From: a virus
DNA: 47,590 bases
IMG/VR virus record: IMGVR_UViG_3300049733_000189
Location: 1 to 47,590 of that record
Direction: 5' to 3' (one strand)
Of the stretch, positions 7,051 through 16,993 are shown piece after piece (within the stretch, counting starts at the first letter, position 1; each line of letters opens with the position of its first letter). The notes beneath the pieces were generated by a model. It was not told where the DNA came from. It was given only the letters and a program-made list of their open reading frames with translations, and did no database searches. A program made the translations under genes and the position numbers.

Positions 7051-7496
7051 GCGAACGGCTTCTCACGCTCGACCAAGCCGCCCAGCAGCTCCACTGGGAG
7101 GGCCGAGGCCGATCCCGACGCCTGAAGCGCTTGCTTTTCGCCAGGGAGCGGCAGACGAAAAAGCGGATCATGACCCGGCTCGGAGGCGATAGGCGCGCGC
7201 GCTACCGCATCACGCTGTCAGCCCTCCGCCGCTACTGCCCCGAGCTCTTCAAGTCCAAAGTCCAGGAGCTGCAGGACAACCTGAAAGGGTTTTTGAAGAG
7301 CATCGACGACCGGATCGCGGACGGGGTCGCCGAGCATGTGACCACGGAGGTTGAACCGAGGCTCCAAGAGCTCTGGGAACGTGACGAGCAACTAGCGGGG
7401 AACATTCAGGAAGTGGCGAGGCGCGTCGAGCAGCTATCGGGCCACGTGAAGCGCCCATCAAAACGGCCGCCAATGACCGCTTTGGACCATGGGTAA
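7047..7496 (+). CDS. Helix-turn-helix protein with coiled-coil tail
   Basis: A 149-residue protein starting with an ATGA overlap on the preceding gene. The N-terminal part (LLTLDQAAQQLHW, then a basic segment RGRSRRLKRLL) resembles excisionase/MerR-type helix-turn-helix domains. Residues about 70-135 form a heptad-rich helical stretch (VQELQDNLKGFLKSIDDRI and later LQELWERDEQLAGNIQEV) compatible with dimerisation through a coiled coil. It could be a regulator of the downstream late genes, being the last clear gene before terminase; this is inference from position. Confidence 0.6.
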   Translation: MSERLLTLDQAAQQLHWEGRGRSRRLKRLLFARERQTKKRIMTRLGGDRRARYRITLSALRRYCPELFKSKVQELQDNLKGFLKSIDDRIADGVAEHVTTEVEPRLQELWERDEQLAGNIQEVARRVEQLSGHVKRPSKRPPMTALDHG

Positions 7497-7908
7497 GCCC
7501 CGGATCCTGAAAGCCCTCGCGCGCGGGATCCCAGAATCCCGGAGCAGAGAGCCAAGGGCTACGAGCCCCCAAGACGCCCCCATCGGCACCCGGCAAACGG
7601 GCGAGTCGAGGGGCGCCCCCGAACGCATGAACGCCCCTCATGACGTCACCGAGCAGGACGACGCCGACGACGCGATCGTCACGGTGCTCTGGTGCGACGA
7701 GGACGACGGCAGACACGTCCCGCGGTACGGCAAACCGCGTCAATCTTCCGCCGCATTCCGCGGCCAGTCAGTAAACCACAGGCGCGAAAGCGCTCCCGTA
7801 CGTCGGACGCGACGGTCTAAACACGGTTGCCGGGAGCGAGGTCGCTATGCCACGCAAGCCCGCAAGCCGTACGGTCACACACGCAGAGCACCCGGAGTGC
7901 CCGGCTGA
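7489..7908 (+). CDS. Doubtful reading frame before terminase
   Basis: A 139-codon frame from ATG 7489, overlapping the preceding gene by eight bases and running 62 bases into the small terminase gene. Composition is low in complexity and Arg/Ser/Pro-rich except for an acidic patch (TEQDDADDAIVTVLWCDEDD). No ribosome-binding site is evident, and an in-frame ATG at 7627 is equally plausible. Its last third covers the structured element at 7791-7838. The stretch 7497-7790 holds nothing else that I can identify. It may be a real short acidic protein or noncoding leader. Confidence 0.3.
   Translation: MGKPRILKALARGIPESRSREPRATSPQDAPIGTRQTGESRGAPERMNAPHDVTEQDDADDAIVTVLWCDEDDGRHVPRYGKPRQSSAAFRGQSVNHRRESAPVRRTRRSKHGCRERGRYATQARKPYGHTRRAPGVPG
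7791..7838 (+). ncRNA. Structured leader element, copy 1 (upstream of small terminase)
   Basis: An outer stem CGCTCCCG (7791-7798) pairs perfectly with CGGGAGCG (7831-7838). Inside are a 5-bp hairpin CGTCG/CGACG with loop GACG and a single-stranded segment containing TAAACACGGTTGC. The same architecture with different stem sequences occurs at 15104-15150. The outer stem ends nine bases before ATG 7847, immediately next to the AGG of the ribosome-binding site, so it could control translation initiation, act as a processing site or bind a protein. An alternative reading as a DNA site (packaging or promoter element) is not excluded. Confidence 0.6.
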
Positions 7909-8278
7909 TAAGCAAGGCCGGATCGACTACATGGTCTCGCTCATGGCCCAGAATCTCTGGGTAACGGGCGTGACGGGTCCTGAGCTCGCGAAGTGCTGGG
8001 AACTCTCGAAAGAGACGATCGAAAAGGACTCGGCCGAGGCCTCGCGGTTCTTCAACACGAACCCGCTAGACCGCGCGTTTCTTCAGGCACGCTGGCACGC
8101 CAAGATCGAAGGCGCCCAGGCGCAAGCGGCTCGCATGGGCCGACTGGAAGCGCTGGCCCAGCTCCTGAAGCTCGAGGGCGACCACCTCGGCACGTTCGAG
8201 GAGCCGAAGCCGGCTGACGGCACGCGCAAGATCGAAGTCGTGTTCACCGACTCGGACCCTGAGCCCGAGGCGGCGTGA
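7847..8278 (+). CDS. terS: Terminase small subunit
   Basis: A 143-residue protein directly upstream of the large terminase, overlapping it by GTGA. The region LWVTGVTGPELAKCWELSKE (about residues 38-58) has helix-turn-helix form for binding the packaging site. It is followed by a helical oligomerisation segment (AKIEGAQAQAARMGRLEAL) and a short acidic tail that in this family contacts the large subunit. Size and position fit small terminases, which recognise concatemeric phage DNA and stimulate the packaging ATPase. Identification is mainly by context and architecture. The ribosome-binding site abuts the structured element at 7791-7838. Confidence 0.7.
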   Translation: MPRKPASRTVTHAEHPECPADKQGRIDYMVSLMAQNLWVTGVTGPELAKCWELSKETIEKDSAEASRFFNTNPLDRAFLQARWHAKIEGAQAQAARMGRLEALAQLLKLEGDHLGTFEEPKPADGTRKIEVVFTDSDPEPEAA

Positions 8279-9621
8279 GTTCGCGGATCGTTTTCAACCC
8301 GCCACAGTCGCGGGCGATGCGCGCGGTCAAGCCCGGCAGGACGATCGTCCTCGCGTTCGGGCGCGGCGTCGGCAAGTCCTGGTTTATCCGGCGACTCGCG
8401 TACATCCTGATTTCGCAGTGGGAGTACCGGGTCAGGCAGACCCCGGGCGGAACGATTCGCGGCATTCGCATCGTCTTCCTGCTGCCCACATTCAAGCAGT
8501 TTCGCGACACACATTCGCGGGCGATGCTGAACGAGCTCCGCGAGGGGTTCGCGTTCCTCGGGGCCGACGTCGATCATACGACGTTCACGGTCACGTTCCC
8601 GGGCGGCTCGAGCATCCAGGTCTTCCCGGCGTCAGAGCACGGCGGACAGAGAGCCCGCGGCATTCGTGCCGACGTGGCCATGGTCGACGAGGGCGACGAC
8701 ACCGAGGCCGAGGTCTTCGACGGCGTAGTGACGCCGTGGTTTACCGAGCCCTGGTCGCTCAAGATTCGCGTCGTCAGCGGCACTCCGAAGCGCGGCCGGC
8801 ACGGGCTGCTCTTCAAGCTTTACGAGGCGGGGCTCAAGGGGGCTCGCATTCGAGCGGGCCAGGTTGACGGATTCACCCCCGAAGAGCTTGACGCGCTGGC
8901 CCGTTTCTACACGGTGCACGCGACCTACCGCGACGCGCCGCTGAACGTTGATCAGCGCGAGGTCGAGACGGCTCGCGTGACGATGCCGCTCGCGACGTTC
9001 GAACGCGAGTACAACTGCAATTTCGACGCAGGCGAAGGCCTCGTCTACCCGTTCGAAGAAGAGTTCCACGTCCGCGAGCCGCCAAGCGGGACACGCTTTC
9101 AAGAGATTCTCATCGGCCAGGACCATGGCTGGACCGACCCCGGCTCACTGATTCGCGCGGGGCTTGTTGGTCACGGCGAGGACGCGATCCTTTGGCTGCT
9201 GGACGAGAGCTACGAGACGGAAGTCCCGAACGACGTCTGGAACGAGCGGGCTCGAGAGTGGCGGGATGGAACGTTCTATCCCGACCCGAGCAGGCCCGAT
9301 CGGATTCACGACCTGCGGAGCATGGGGCTTCGGGTTGCCGAGGTCGACAACGACATTCTTGCTGGTATCAGCCGCGTCGCGAACCTGCTGTTCATTCGCG
9401 AGACCGAGTACGGCGAGCGGTACGCGCGGCTTTACGTCTCGCCCCGCTGCGTGAATACGATTCGCGAATTCGGCTTGTACCGGCGAAAGAAGAATTCGGA
9501 CGGGACCTTCGACGAGCAGCCCGAGGACAAGCATAACCACGCGCTCGACCCAGTTCGCTACATGGCGGTCGGCCGCTTCGGTCGCATGCCGAACTACAGG
9601 CACACCACGAGCGGCCGATGA
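8275..9621 (+). CDS. terL: Terminase large subunit (packaging ATPase/nuclease)
   Basis: A 448-residue motor protein. The ATPase domain has Walker A GRGVGKS (about residues 29-35), Walker B VAMVDE (about 134-139) and the coupling motif SGTP (about 168-171). The RNase H-like nuclease domain shows the first Asp in IGQDHGWTDP (D283) and the last in NHALDPVRYM (D425). It translocates DNA into the prohead and cuts it. The GTG at 8275 overlaps the stop of the small subunit, so the two are translationally coupled; the portal gene starts with an ATGA overlap downstream. Confidence 0.93.
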   Translation: MSSRIVFNPPQSRAMRAVKPGRTIVLAFGRGVGKSWFIRRLAYILISQWEYRVRQTPGGTIRGIRIVFLLPTFKQFRDTHSRAMLNELREGFAFLGADVDHTTFTVTFPGGSSIQVFPASEHGGQRARGIRADVAMVDEGDDTEAEVFDGVVTPWFTEPWSLKIRVVSGTPKRGRHGLLFKLYEAGLKGARIRAGQVDGFTPEELDALARFYTVHATYRDAPLNVDQREVETARVTMPLATFEREYNCNFDAGEGLVYPFEEEFHVREPPSGTRFQEILIGQDHGWTDPGSLIRAGLVGHGEDAILWLLDESYETEVPNDVWNERAREWRDGTFYPDPSRPDRIHDLRSMGLRVAEVDNDILAGISRVANLLFIRETEYGERYARLYVSPRCVNTIREFGLYRRKKNSDGTFDEQPEDKHNHALDPVRYMAVGRFGRMPNYRHTTSGR

Positions 9622-12723: not shown

Positions 12724-13046
12724 TGGTCGCTGCCAATCCGTTCCCCGACGGCTTCGTCACCCTGGAGCAGGCCGAGCGCTTGCGGCAGGACAACGAGGCC
12801 GGGGCATTCCGGGCAAAGAACCCGGCGGAGTGGGAGCGGCTCACGGCGGCGATCGTTGCGTACAAGAACGCGGCTACCGAGTGGCAAGCCGCCCGCATTG
12901 CCGTTGGAAACGCCACGACATCGAACGTCAACGACCTTGTAGACGCGGCCGAGCGCGAGGCGGGCGCCCAGCTTGCCGAGACCGCGAAACAGCTCTCGGT
13001 TCGCAAGCTCGAGCAGGCTGACAAGCTGAAAAAGTCGAAGAAGTAA
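12723..13046 (+). CDS. Hypothetical helical protein
   Basis: A 107-residue protein that starts on the last base of the preceding stop and ends overlapping the glycosyltransferase start by one base. It is mainly helical and Ala/Glu/Lys-rich (ERLTAAIVAYKNAATEWQAA), with a lysine-rich end (KLKKSKK). It may be a small internal virion or assembly protein; nothing more specific can be read. Confidence 0.5.
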   Translation: MVAANPFPDGFVTLEQAERLRQDNEAGAFRAKNPAEWERLTAAIVAYKNAATEWQAARIAVGNATTSNVNDLVDAAEREAGAQLAETAKQLSVRKLEQADKLKKSKK

Positions 13047-15085
13047 TGGGCAAGAAACCGCGCATCGTTCTGACCATGATTGTCAAGAACGAGGCGAAGG
13101 TTATCCGGCGCTGCCTCGGCTCGATCAAAAAGTACATCGACGCCTGGGCCATCAGCGACACGGGCAGCACGGACGGCACTCAGGAAATCATCCGTCAGGA
13201 GCTGGCAGGGATTCCCGGGGTTCTGCTCGAGCGGCCATGGGTCGACTTCGCCACGAACCGCAACGAGGCGATCGAAGCGGCGGCGGAGTTCAATCCCGAC
13301 TACTGCCTGACGCTCGACGCCGACGAGGAGCTGACGATCGGCCCCGGGTTCTCGCTACGTGACCTTACGTGCGAGACCTACGACGCCATGTTCCAGATTG
13401 CTGGGACGACTGGCAAGTGGCCGCGCAAGTTCCTGTTTCAGCCGCACCTTCGTTACCGCTACGTGCTCGACGAGGTGCTTGAGCAGGGCAAGACGCACGC
13501 CATTCTCCCGGCGTGTCTCGTCGAGTCCCACACGGACGGCGCGCGCAGTGCCGACGGCCTGATCGCCAAGTACAACCGCGACGTTGAAGTGCTTCAGCGC
13601 GCGGTCGAGCGCGAGCCGAACGAATCACGTTATTGGTACTACCTCGCGCAGAGACTGGCCGGCGCCAAGCGCTACGAAGAAGCGATTCAAGCCTACGAGC
13701 GGCGCATCGAGCTGCCCGGAGGAATGCAGGCCGAGCGCGGCTACAGTCAGCTGATGATCGGCCAGTGCCTCGAGGAAATCGGGGCGCCGTTCGAAGCGAT
13801 TCAGGCTGCCTACCTCAAGAGCTGGCAACTCTACCCGCACCGGGCGGAGACGCTTTTTGCTCTCGGCTGCGTGCACTCGGTGCGCGGCGAGCATGCTCTC
13901 GCTGAGCTCTACGCCCGGGCTGCGCAGAAGGTGCCGCGTCCGACCGACCCGCTTCCCGCCGACGAGTCGATCTATGCGTTCCGTGCCGTCGACTTGCTCG
14001 CGGGCGCGCTCTCGGAGCAGGGCAAGCTCGACGAAGCGCTCGACCTGCTCGAGAAACTTTACGCGCTACCACAGCTCCCGGACGAGGAGCGTGGGCGGGT
14101 TCTCGAGAACATCAACAAGATCAAGGCCGCTCAGGCGGAGCCGGACGAAAAGTCAAGCCTCGGTCCAGACGAGCGTGTCTACGAAAACCAGGCGGACATG
14201 GTCCGCCGGCACGGCTTCGGCGGGTTCCGCCGGATGGGCCTCGAGTTCCTGAACAGCTTTCAGGCGCAGTCGCTCCCGAGCCCCCTGCGCTGGCTGTGGC
14301 TGACGCTCTGCGCGCTTATCGGCACGCGGGCGGCCTCGGTAGCCGGGGCGGTCGCAACGGTCCCCGTGACCATCTGGGCGCTTCAGCCGCTCAATGCCAA
14401 CTGGGCTGTGGTGGCAGCGCTCCTCGCGGTCTCCCCGCTCCTGTTTCTGGCGGCTCGCCGCCGGCTCCAAGACGGGCTGGTCGCGGCGCTCACGCTGGCG
14501 GCTACCGGCTTCGCGCTCCGGGCCGACCCGTACGGACTCGGCGCCGTCCTGTTCGCTCTGGTCGCGGTCAAGGAAGCGTCTGTCCTCTGCGTACCGGCGT
14601 TCGCCGTGGCCTGGTGGATCGGCGGCGGCACTCCGATTCCGCTTCTCGCGGCGATCGGCGCGGCCGGACTCGCCAACGGAGCGGCACTTCTCGCGCTGTT
14701 CCGCGGAATGCTCCCCGCCATGCTCAAGGGCGCGGCGGGCGGGCACGCGACGCCCTACACGCTCGACCACCAGCGCGGCAGCTGGCATCGGTTGCTCGTC
14801 GACCTCGTCATGGTCTCGCCCGTGACGACGCTCGCGGCTCTGTTCGGACCGTGGCAGCTACTCCTGATTGCCGCGACGCTACTCGGCGCGCACGCAATCG
14901 CCCCGGTACGCAATGTGCGGCTCGTGATTGCGGTCGACGTCCTGCTCCGCGTAGCCGCTGTCATCGCCTTCGGCTGGTGGGTTCTGCCCGCCGCGGCGAT
15001 CGACATCTACATCTCGCGCAAGCTTCGGCTTGTTTACGACCCGGTGACGGCCGCTCTGGCGTCGCAACTGGGCATGTCTCGATAA
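13046..15085 (+). CDS. GT2 glycosyltransferase with TPR and multispanning membrane domain
   Basis: A 679-residue protein with three parts. Residues 1 to about 170 are a family-2 glycosyltransferase: MIVKNEAKVI at the start, nucleotide-sugar site DTGSTDGT (38-45), metal-binding DADEE (91-95). Residues about 175-370 are tetratricopeptide-like helical repeats (for example YYLAQRLAGAKRYEEAIQAY). Residues about 410-660 are hydrophobic, with roughly six to eight membrane segments (WLWLTLCALIG, VVAALLAVSPLLFLA, LLLIAATLLGA). It should transfer a sugar at the inner face of the host membrane. The place, inside the head operon, is unusual. Possible roles are decoration of virion proteins, or alteration of host surface glycans to block further infection. 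Confidence 0.82.
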   Translation: MGKKPRIVLTMIVKNEAKVIRRCLGSIKKYIDAWAISDTGSTDGTQEIIRQELAGIPGVLLERPWVDFATNRNEAIEAAAEFNPDYCLTLDADEELTIGPGFSLRDLTCETYDAMFQIAGTTGKWPRKFLFQPHLRYRYVLDEVLEQGKTHAILPACLVESHTDGARSADGLIAKYNRDVEVLQRAVEREPNESRYWYYLAQRLAGAKRYEEAIQAYERRIELPGGMQAERGYSQLMIGQCLEEIGAPFEAIQAAYLKSWQLYPHRAETLFALGCVHSVRGEHALAELYARAAQKVPRPTDPLPADESIYAFRAVDLLAGALSEQGKLDEALDLLEKLYALPQLPDEERGRVLENINKIKAAQAEPDEKSSLGPDERVYENQADMVRRHGFGGFRRMGLEFLNSFQAQSLPSPLRWLWLTLCALIGTRAASVAGAVATVPVTIWALQPLNANWAVVAALLAVSPLLFLAARRRLQDGLVAALTLAATGFALRADPYGLGAVLFALVAVKEASVLCVPAFAVAWWIGGGTPIPLLAAIGAAGLANGAALLALFRGMLPAMLKGAAGGHATPYTLDHQRGSWHRLLVDLVMVSPVTTLAALFGPWQLLLIAATLLGAHAIAPVRNVRLVIAVDVLLRVAAVIAFGWWVLPAAAIDIYISRKLRLVYDPVTAALASQLGMSR

Positions 15086-15103: not shown

Positions 15104-15150
15104 CTCTCGGTTACGTCCGACGGGACGGCTTAAACACGGTTGCCCGAGAG
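15104..15150 (+). ncRNA. Structured leader element, copy 2 (upstream of scaffold gene)
   Basis: An outer stem CTCTCGG (15104-15110) pairs with CCGAGAG (15144-15150). An inner hairpin CGTCC/GGACG again has loop GACG, and the segment TAAACACGGTTGC is identical to copy 1 at 7791-7838. Stem bases differ between the copies but stay complementary, which argues for selection on structure. It begins 19 bases after the glycosyltransferase stop and is followed at once by AGGGAG, the ribosome-binding site of the scaffold gene. Confidence 0.62.
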
Positions 15151-15162
15151 AGGGAGTGAAGC

Positions 15163-15861
15163 ATGTTCGGTCCCCGATTTGCGGTGTTCAACACCGAAGG
15201 CACAGCTGCGCCAAATGGCGCTCAACCGGCTCCCGTAACGCCACCGGCTACCCCGCCGGCAGCGGCAACCACAGCGATCCCCACGGCGGACGAAAACCCG
15301 GCATGGCTGCCCGTTCGGCTTGAGCAAGCCGCCCGTCTCGCCGTCGAGAATTACGCCAAGTCCCTAGGGATCACCGATCCAGCAAAGGCGAAGGCGGCGC
15401 TGGATGCGGCGAAAAAAGCCGAAGAAGACGCGAAATCCCAGGGCGAGCGACTCGGCGAAACGACCAAGCTGCTCGAAGAGGCAAAAGCGCGAGCTGATCG
15501 CTACGAAGGCGTGACCAAAGAACACGCTGCGCGGCAGATGGGACTGCTCACGGATCTGCAGCGCGAGGCAGTGCGCAGGGTTGCGCCCGATTCCGATCCG
15601 GCGGCGCAGCTCGCGCAGATCGACGCAATGCGACCGACATGGCACGCGCAGCCGGCGCCAGCGGGGCAACCCGCGCCGCCCGCACAGCCGGTCCCGCCAG
15701 CGAGCGGAACAGCGCCGCCACCTACCGCTCCGCCCGGCACGGTGGTTTCACCGCCGAACCACAAAGAGATCCACACGCAGCTCGCGAAGACCAATCCGTT
15801 CGCGGCCGCCAACTACGCGCTGGAGCACCTCGCCGAGGTGTTCCCAGAGCAAACCTCCTGA
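15163..15861 (+). CDS. Putative capsid scaffolding protein
   Basis: A 232-residue protein directly upstream of the major capsid gene. It has a Pro/Ala/Thr-rich flexible N-terminus, a central charged helical stretch (AALDAAKKAEEDAKSQGERL and on to about residue 135) with coiled-coil character, a proline-rich linker, and a basic-hydrophobic C-terminal end (NYALEHLAEVF) of the kind that docks on capsid subunits. These are scaffold traits; scaffold proteins form the inner core of the prohead and leave before or during packaging. The AGGGAG ribosome-binding site is well placed. Confidence 0.7.
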   Translation: MFGPRFAVFNTEGTAAPNGAQPAPVTPPATPPAAATTAIPTADENPAWLPVRLEQAARLAVENYAKSLGITDPAKAKAALDAAKKAEEDAKSQGERLGETTKLLEEAKARADRYEGVTKEHAARQMGLLTDLQREAVRRVAPDSDPAAQLAQIDAMRPTWHAQPAPAGQPAPPAQPVPPASGTAPPPTAPPGTVVSPPNHKEIHTQLAKTNPFAAANYALEHLAEVFPEQTS

Positions 15862-15913: not shown

Positions 15914-16993
15914 ATGAGTGCGTTCTCCCGCGTCACCATGCCCAGCAACTTCTACGACATCACGTCGTCGATGCTGCTCACCGCGCCCGAACCCCAATAC
16001 CTCTACGCCCAGCTGTTCAAGGCTGCGCTCGGCACTGGGCTCGCTGTCCCGAGCGAACTCGGCTTGCCGGGTCGTGCGGTCGGCGGCAATGGCGCCCCGT
16101 ACTCCGCCGCGGAGCGCGATCGGCTGATTCTCTCGAGCGGCCTGCCGAGCTCGCTGTTCGCCACGACGGTGAACTTTCAGGCGATGCCGGGCAGCTCGAT
16201 CCGCATCAATCGCCCGGTCTTCACGAACTCGACCTATACGGCCGTCTCGCGCAAGATTGCAACGGGGACCACGATCAGCACCACGCCGATCACCCCGAGC
16301 GGCGCACAGACCAATCTCACGGTCGAGCGCTTCGGCGGTCCGTACGACAGCACGGTTCAGCCGTACGGCATCGAGGCGTTCGATGCGAGCATGGGCGTGC
16401 ACCGAGCGGCGAGCATCGTCGGCACGCACCTCAAGCGCGACTTCGACAAGTTCCTGGACGCCGTGTGGGTGACCCTGTTCGACCTAGCGGCAACGGCCGT
16501 CTACCCCGAGGGCATGAGCGCGGTGAACGACGCGACTACGGTCGGATCGTTCCCCTTCACGTTCGAGCAGCTCGGGCGCACCGAGCGGCTAATGGACGTG
16601 GCGAACCTGCCCACATTCCCCGACGGCTTCCGCGCGCTCGTGCTGACCCCGATCCAGGTCGAGCAGCTCGGTTTGGATGGCAACTACAACAGCCGCGCCA
16701 AGGAATTCCCGCAGTACAGCTCGCTGTTCCCGCAGTACGTGGCGAGCGTGAAGAAGTTCCATATCTTCAAGTCGAACACGCTGGCGACAACGGCCAACAG
16801 CTCGTCGGTCGCGATCCAGTACGGCCACGCTATTGCCCCCGGAGCTGCCATGGGCGGCATGGGTCGAGCTCCGCGCGTCGCGGCGAACACGAACGACAAT
16901 TACGGCGAAACGGTCCTGGCCTTGTGGCTCGCCGATCTCGCGTTTGCCCTCGCGAACAACGAGTTCGTCTATAGCGTGCGGTCGTCTGCGTAA
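15914..16993 (+). CDS. Major capsid protein
   Basis: A 359-residue protein, with size and position expected for an HK97-fold capsid subunit: it follows the scaffold gene, is preceded by AAAGGA, and is followed by a strong hairpin. The sequence has the alternating alpha/beta composition of such subunits (PFTFEQLGRTERLMDV for a spine helix, RALVLTPIQVEQLGLDGNY, and a C-terminal GETVLALWLADLAFAL). The N-terminal arm is short and the scaffold is a separate gene. No maturation protease gene is seen, so processing is probably absent or done otherwise. Confidence 0.83.
   Translation: MSAFSRVTMPSNFYDITSSMLLTAPEPQYLYAQLFKAALGTGLAVPSELGLPGRAVGGNGAPYSAAERDRLILSSGLPSSLFATTVNFQAMPGSSIRINRPVFTNSTYTAVSRKIATGTTISTTPITPSGAQTNLTVERFGGPYDSTVQPYGIEAFDASMGVHRAASIVGTHLKRDFDKFLDAVWVTLFDLAATAVYPEGMSAVNDATTVGSFPFTFEQLGRTERLMDVANLPTFPDGFRALVLTPIQVEQLGLDGNYNSRAKEFPQYSSLFPQYVASVKKFHIFKSNTLATTANSSSVAIQYGHAIAPGAAMGGMGRAPRVAANTNDNYGETVLALWLADLAFALANNEFVYSVRSSA

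Follow-up and report, generated by a model that had tools for sequence, protein, structure and literature searches.

Small folded RNA leaders with two interchangeable cores before the terminase small subunit and scaffold genes of phages, and their possible role in translation

The window, i.e., the whole stretch of 47,590 nucleotides that was analyzed (positions 1 to 47,590 of the IMG/VR virus record IMGVR_UViG_3300049733_000189), carries two copies of a small structured element, each directly before a phage head gene (Table 1). Copy 1 ends 8 nt before the start of the probable terminase small subunit gene (terS), which is followed by terL, and copy 2 ends 12 nt before the probable scaffold gene, behind which the probable major capsid gene lies. 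The ORF at the terS position has no PHROG or Pfam match, and neither the scaffold ORF nor the capsid ORF matches a known family. Between the packaging genes and the scaffold gene lies a 679-aa glycosyltransferase-like gene (13046-15085) that matches phrog_13126 and Glycos_transf_2, with TPR matches. An ORF running through copy 1 (7489-7908) is probably spurious; the corresponding frames are not regularly open in relatives.

Table 1. Features of the two leader copies and of the genes behind them in the window
Feature	Position	Strand	Basis or remark
P0 hairpin GCGC-GAAA-GCGC, copy 1	7782..7793	+	sequence
Leader, copy 1	7791..7838	+	checked in window sequence
P1 5' arm, copy 1, CGCTCCCG	7791..7798	+	sequence, flank-swap test
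P2 hairpin A-CGTCG-GACG-CGACG-G, copy 1	7800..7815	+	sequence, covariation
P2 arms CGTCG and CGACG, copy 1	7801..7805, 7810..7814	+	
P2 loop GACG, copy 1	7806..7809	+	
Conserved A-rich strand TAAACACGG, copy 1	7818..7826	+	core found in all members
P1 3' arm, copy 1, CGGGAGCG	7831..7838	+	contains SD-like GGGAG, overlaps start of GAGGT
Probable terminase small subunit terS, 143 aa	7847..8278	+	immediately precedes terL; alignable with ORFs at the terS position in relatives
Terminase large subunit terL	8275..9621	+	phrog_2, E 4e-30; Terminase_6N
Leader, copy 2	15104..15150	+	checked in window sequence
P1 5' arm, copy 2, CTCTCGG	15104..15110	+	sequence, flank-swap test
P2 hairpin A-CGTCC-GACG-GGACG-G, copy 2	15113..15128	+	sequence, covariation
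P2 arms CGTCC and GGACG, copy 2	15114..15118, 15123..15127	+	
P2 loop GACG, copy 2	15119..15122	+	
Conserved strand TAAACACGG, copy 2	15131..15139	+	sequence
P1 3' arm, copy 2, CCGAGAG	15144..15150	+	overlaps start of SD region GAGGGAG (15150-15156)
Probable capsid scaffold, 232 aa, Pro/Ala-rich	15163..15861	+	role from position and composition
Probable major capsid protein	15914..16993	+	role from position, downstream of scaffold

A sequence-only reading of this DNA had placed two copies with the same core and layout at exactly these positions, where they are indeed present. An outer stem, P1, encloses the hairpin P2, from which it is separated by the linker TA in copy 1 and TTA in copy 2; P2 is followed by GTC, TAAACACGG, and TTGC in copy 1 and by GCT, TAAACACGG, and TTGC in copy 2, where the last T of GCT/TC is counted also in TAAACACGG as the alignment writes it. 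The core string TAAACACGGTTGC is present exactly twice in the record. The A-rich strand TAAACACGG may make a 2-bp contact with the GACG loop. At copy 1, the P0 hairpin overlaps the P1 5' arm and forms an alternative, mutually exclusive pairing. Small hairpins of the P0 type, often with a GNRA loop, also stand directly before the element in the terS leaders L020, L109, L117, L175, L051, L013, L168, and L021, and in several terS leaders they overlap the P1 5' arm so that P0 and full P1 exclude each other, which is possibly a switch. Single-sequence folding of either copy is only moderately better than that of shuffles (z of -1.0 to -1.9). Since the thermodynamics are unremarkable and two copies alone are weak evidence, relatives were needed.

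Pattern scans of IMG/VR recovered the same core in about 30 contigs. The pattern, which both window copies fit, consists of an A, a 5-bp stem with a GACG loop, a G, two or three bases, and (A/T)AAACACGG. The P2 stem varies among the members (CGUCG/CGACG, CGUCC/GGACG, CGCCG/CGGCG, CCUCG/CGAGG, CGCCC/GGGCG, CGAGC/GCUCG, and CGUCU/AGACG), while the GACG loop, the flanking A and G, and AAACACGG are invariant, AAACACGG being replaced by AAAUACGG in L053 and L114. A scan whose pattern left pairing free returned 15 matches with all five pairs, each including the same core and the flanking A, whereas the 13 matches with 0-4 pairs (a few of them from other scans) all lack the flanking A; full P2 pairing and the other core features are thus present together or absent together. 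Among 21 aligned members, P2 is 100% paired compared with 81% in shuffles, with changes on both sides in four of the five pairs, although the choice of these members partly required pairing, so that the pairing-free scan is the cleaner test of P2. P1 pairing played no part in choosing members for the flank-swap test, in which the mean P1 pairing score is 6.0 versus 4.1 with flanks swapped among members, none of 2000 swaps reaching the score of the real flanks. A covariance model built from seven sequences, i.e., six natural ones and one from which a linker base was removed to keep register, recovers the remaining members, its own input sequences matching by construction. The covariation that the sequence-only reading had seen in the stems of two copies therefore extends to relatives, and the covariance-model search and covariation test that it had proposed as checks yielded further members and pairing beyond that of shuffles and swaps. 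The first core scan was mostly chance, with only L003 and L013 real among 14 matches, and in L010 the core is part of a tandem repeat.

The genomic position of the members is equally regular. Every full-length GACG copy lies a few bases upstream of a terS or scaffold gene, and copies stand at both genes in six contigs: the window, 3300045391_003319 (L003/L168), 3300012041_000282 (L013/L174), 3300045391_003145 (L069), 3300045391_001980 (L019), and 3300037511_000456 (L375). Lineages whose capsid proteins are unrelated also have the core (the L030 group, L047, L170, and the L045/L068/L114 group). The two hairpins of the window are real members of a family of small folded RNA leaders, and the earlier claim that RNA structure is under selection at a regulatory site of late genes is upheld in these relatives.

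The 74 relatives of the window capsid protein in IMG/VR, which were found without using the RNA, revealed a second core. Relatives recognized solely by their capsid protein mostly carry, at the same site and enclosed by P1, an H-type pseudoknot of the layout A-C(G/C)N-loop(7-8)-N(C/G)G-G-YAA...-strand, in which the strand pairs with the loop. The pseudoknot helix differs from leader to leader (CGCGA/UCGCG in L404, CGUGA/UCACG in L405, UGUGA/UCACA in L417, CGCUG/CAGCG in L421, and CGAC/GUCG in L420). In 35 leaders, the mean match of strand to loop is 4.14 versus 2.75 when swapped (0/5000), and 4.25 versus 2.35 once the majority CGCC/GGCG class is removed; the swap test parsed P2 blind to the pseudoknot, with a mild bias in that it was a pseudoknot descriptor that first pointed to some of the 35 leaders. 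Compensatory changes affect all five pseudoknot pairs in the class with an 8-nt loop, a descriptive count, as these members were picked by their pseudoknot. The cleanest test of the pseudoknot type is the descriptor rate among 49 scaffold leaders of capsid-homologous phages, which were chosen without the RNA: 20 score as pseudoknot type and nine as GACG type, compared with 1.1% and 0.12% of random windows, respectively. Two further GACG-type leaders, L373 and L375, were missed by the strict regular expression, and most of the remaining scaffold leaders show, by eye, the same layout with shorter helices. P1 pairs beyond chance in the pseudoknot type as well (0/3000 swaps). The pseudoknot is the commoner of the two cores in this lineage, and the GACG hairpin is the other.

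The two core types are interchangeable at the same site, as judged by comparing contigs. L402 (on the same contig as L117) and L109 combine a GACG core at terS with a pseudoknot at the scaffold gene, whereas L377 and L379 have the reverse arrangement, and L389, L387, L399, and L403 have a pseudoknot at both genes (partly by eye). Within the L030 group, L296 apparently has a pseudoknot-like form in place of the GACG hairpin (by eye). The bases common to both cores are the A before P2, the CG closing pairs, the G after P2, and YAA, i.e., A-CG...CG-G-YAA. We infer that the GACG core may be a minimal pseudoknot, formed by the CG of the loop and the CG of ACGG.

The location of the Shine-Dalgarno sequence (SD) links the fold to translation. 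In 44 of 46 leaders of both core types, the SD and the P1 3' arm overlap or are at most 3 nt apart: the best SD match overlaps the arm by at least three bases in 33, by one or two in six, and abuts it within 3 nt in five, while the SD stands apart in one leader and was not found in another. In both window copies P1 overlaps the best SD match by 1-2 nt, and copy 1 additionally has a GGGAG inside P1 at a spacing of 10. In the predicted structures, the SD of the folded leader is accordingly paired or blocked. Sequence comparison shows the structures and their covariation, where the SD lies, with which genes the leader is associated, and that the two cores interchange; a translational role is favored mainly because of the SD position at the P1 3' arm. 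That position and the second, interchangeable core are what we add to the late-gene regulatory RNA proposed by the sequence-only reading, which is otherwise supported. With a probability of roughly 0.5, we propose that the leader acts in cis to gate the translation of phage head genes. Its compact core, either the GACG hairpin plus the A-rich strand 3' of it or the H-type pseudoknot, would be closed by P1, the 3' arm of which contains or touches the SD of terS or the scaffold gene; the folded leader would hinder the 30S subunit and presumably lower translation, and the opening of P1 would allow the gene to be translated. The two sites of a genome could then set the timing or amounts of packaging and shell proteins together. 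The simplest guess for the agent that opens or closes the gate would be a trans-acting protein recognizing the A-CG...CG-G-YAA core. Strict autoregulation is less likely because the same core precedes different genes, and an SD that is off by default is not an obvious design, since scaffold and capsid are made in large amounts.

A site acting as DNA, for example in packaging (pac/cos) or as a hairpin promoter, is very improbable: one copy does adjoin terS, a usual place for packaging sites, but the second lies at the scaffold gene, and the fixed strand, the short spacing to the start codon, the SD pairing, and the pseudoknot variants all speak against it, the last of these also disfavoring the cruciform DNA that had been offered as an alternative to RNA. 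A metabolite riboswitch with translational output would agree with the small size, the SD-sequestering stem, the strict sequence of the GACG type, and an H-type topology similar to that of known small riboswitches. It is nevertheless improbable, as very few unpaired bases are kept in the pseudoknot type, whose loops and helices differ in length, the genes under control are all phage head genes, and a weak search found no cellular copy. The preQ1-I and SAM-II riboswitches of Rfam likewise have an H-type fold and an A-containing loop near the SD; unlike them, the present leaders have no Rfam match at the gathering threshold, and the pseudoknot type lacks aptamer-like conservation.

Several lineages depart from the usual arrangement. 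The L030 group has a TATAAT-like -10 box some 7-8 nt ahead of the A of P2, which puts the predicted transcript start at this A and would leave the P1 5' arm untranscribed; the start codon is about 90-110 nt from the core, and a longer enclosing stem (UUAGGAC/GUUCUAA) would be possible only with an earlier transcription start. The capsid leaders of this group (L030:170-290 and L023, L026, L028, L031, L032, and L040) carry hairpins in tandem, with GACG or GCAC as the loop and with AAAC(AC)GG or a close variant after each, as well as further hairpins. In L045 (5171-5214, plus strand), L068 (6635-6669, minus strand), and L114 (11303-11329, plus strand), the core lies inside the N-terminal scaffold coding sequence and encodes TSDGTGQNTG, TSDATAQNTG, and TSDGDGKNTG, respectively; L045 and L068 differ by a C-G to G-C change (TCC..GGG versus TCG..GCG) that is compensatory, keeping P2, and alters an amino acid, and L114 has a leader copy besides the one in the coding sequence. 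The L030 group and the coding-sequence copies suggest that the core has value without P1. The sequence-only reading had named relatives with the core but no flanking pairing as a refutation, and this partly applies: P1 is usual but not universal, the L030 group and the L045 and L068 coding copies having the core without it. Directly upstream of the element, L434 (about 9190-9268) and L142 (minus strand, upstream of 4435) have a terminator-like hairpin with a T run, and in L434 the T run itself is the P1 5' arm and pairs with the SD region. In L170, a promoter-like TTGATT-17-TATCAT lies just upstream of the element.

These arrangements bear on two serious rivals of the translational gate. The leader could be an mRNA protection or processing element, its 5' hairpin or pseudoknot blocking 5'-end-dependent decay or marking a processing site of late transcripts. 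The -10 box of the L030 group would put the hairpin at the very 5' end, L170 has its promoter-like sequence just before the element, and pseudoknots of low conservation would suit a mechanical block; we consider this explanation unlikely, since it leaves unexplained both the pairing of P1 with the SD in nearly all leaders and the strict GACG/AAACACGG sequence. Alternatively, the element could act on RNA polymerase to allow read-through of late operons, as does the HK022 put RNA, in which two stem-loops at the start of the phage transcript bind RNA polymerase and cause antitermination. The element does stand at the start of late gene blocks, with a terminator-like hairpin (L434 and L142) or a promoter (the L030 group, with a second GACG hairpin) directly before it; a core conserved in phages with unrelated capsids would fit a host target, and copies in coding sequence, as in L045 and L068, would be tolerable. 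Antitermination does not, however, require consistent SD pairing, which has no part in put function, and it is judged distinctly unlikely.

The translational gate has partial parallels in other phages. The Mu mom leader is controlled by Com, and its likeness would lie in being a phage translational switch opened by a protein, at a single gene. The T4/T2 gene 32 leader is likewise a phage 5' leader with an H-type pseudoknot that controls translation; this pseudoknot is located 67 nt ahead of the start and serves as the nucleation site for gp32, which in autoregulation binds over an A+U-rich ribosome binding site (PMC3014915), whereas the present one is nested in a stem that pairs with the SD, has a high GC content, stands before terS and scaffold genes, and has an interchangeable hairpin form. 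The T4 genes e, soc, 49, and I-TevI hide the SD and/or start codon in an mRNA helix and thus share SD sequestering with the present leaders (PMC3014915). Late promoters lift the block on gene e by producing transcripts that lack the 5' arm (PMC3014915). Unlike the present family, the T4 hairpins have no described conserved core common to genes and unrelated phages.

When capsids from three lineages with the element are compared with those of named phages, the nearest relatives are largely actinophages. The terS leaders of Mycobacterium cluster F, Avanivirus, and Gordonia phages are pseudoknot-like (A-CGC-yGACGyCGG-GCG-G-(U)YAA-CCGG) and show no clear P1; they probably belong to the family. In L446 (374-450) and its Mycobacterium/Gordonia relatives L452-L460, the conserved pseudoknot-like leader lies between an HNH gene and terS and is preceded by a hairpin. 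Some named actinophages (Coco12 at the scaffold gene, and AGM1) show simple leader pairing, which was not taken as membership. A BLAST search of the core against named phages gave chance matches only. A search of the window, 10 GACG-type loci, and 10 capsid-relative loci (most of the pseudoknot type) against Rfam 15 returned nothing above the gathering score, and a permissive search of the element gave only chance-level matches, in agreement with the sequence-only reading, which did not recognize the element as a known riboswitch, ribozyme, or terminator. Neither copy has a site resembling an intrinsic terminator (a GC hairpin with a T run), a tRNA was ruled out, and CsrA-type and guanidine-II-like loops were rejected by inspection. 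None of the 118 loci listed from a scan of genome contigs with too loose a pattern has the element, and 296 sampled genomes from the phylum of one actinobacterial MAG contained neither core nor capsid relatives, in a weak search that had no positive control; weak model matches in two other genomes were due to chance. No description of the leader was found in the open-access literature, where absence is no proof, and the family is probably undescribed.

A wider and more tentative view is that the leaders form a superfamily, in which the two folds would serve as interchangeable gates for one common factor and coordinate the translation of packaging and shell proteins across unrelated lineages; they would then be new and widespread phage cis-regulatory RNAs, the GACG hairpin perhaps being the minimal pseudoknot. 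The swapping of folds at one site offers a natural test of what the recognizing factor reads. The idea is directly testable, given that dozens of phage contigs have pseudoknot leaders and that named M. smegmatis phages have similar ones before terS. Promoters and antitermination are the usual explanation for the control of late genes in tailed phages; if the gate is real, its sharing by terS and scaffold genes would constitute a post-transcriptional layer of head assembly.
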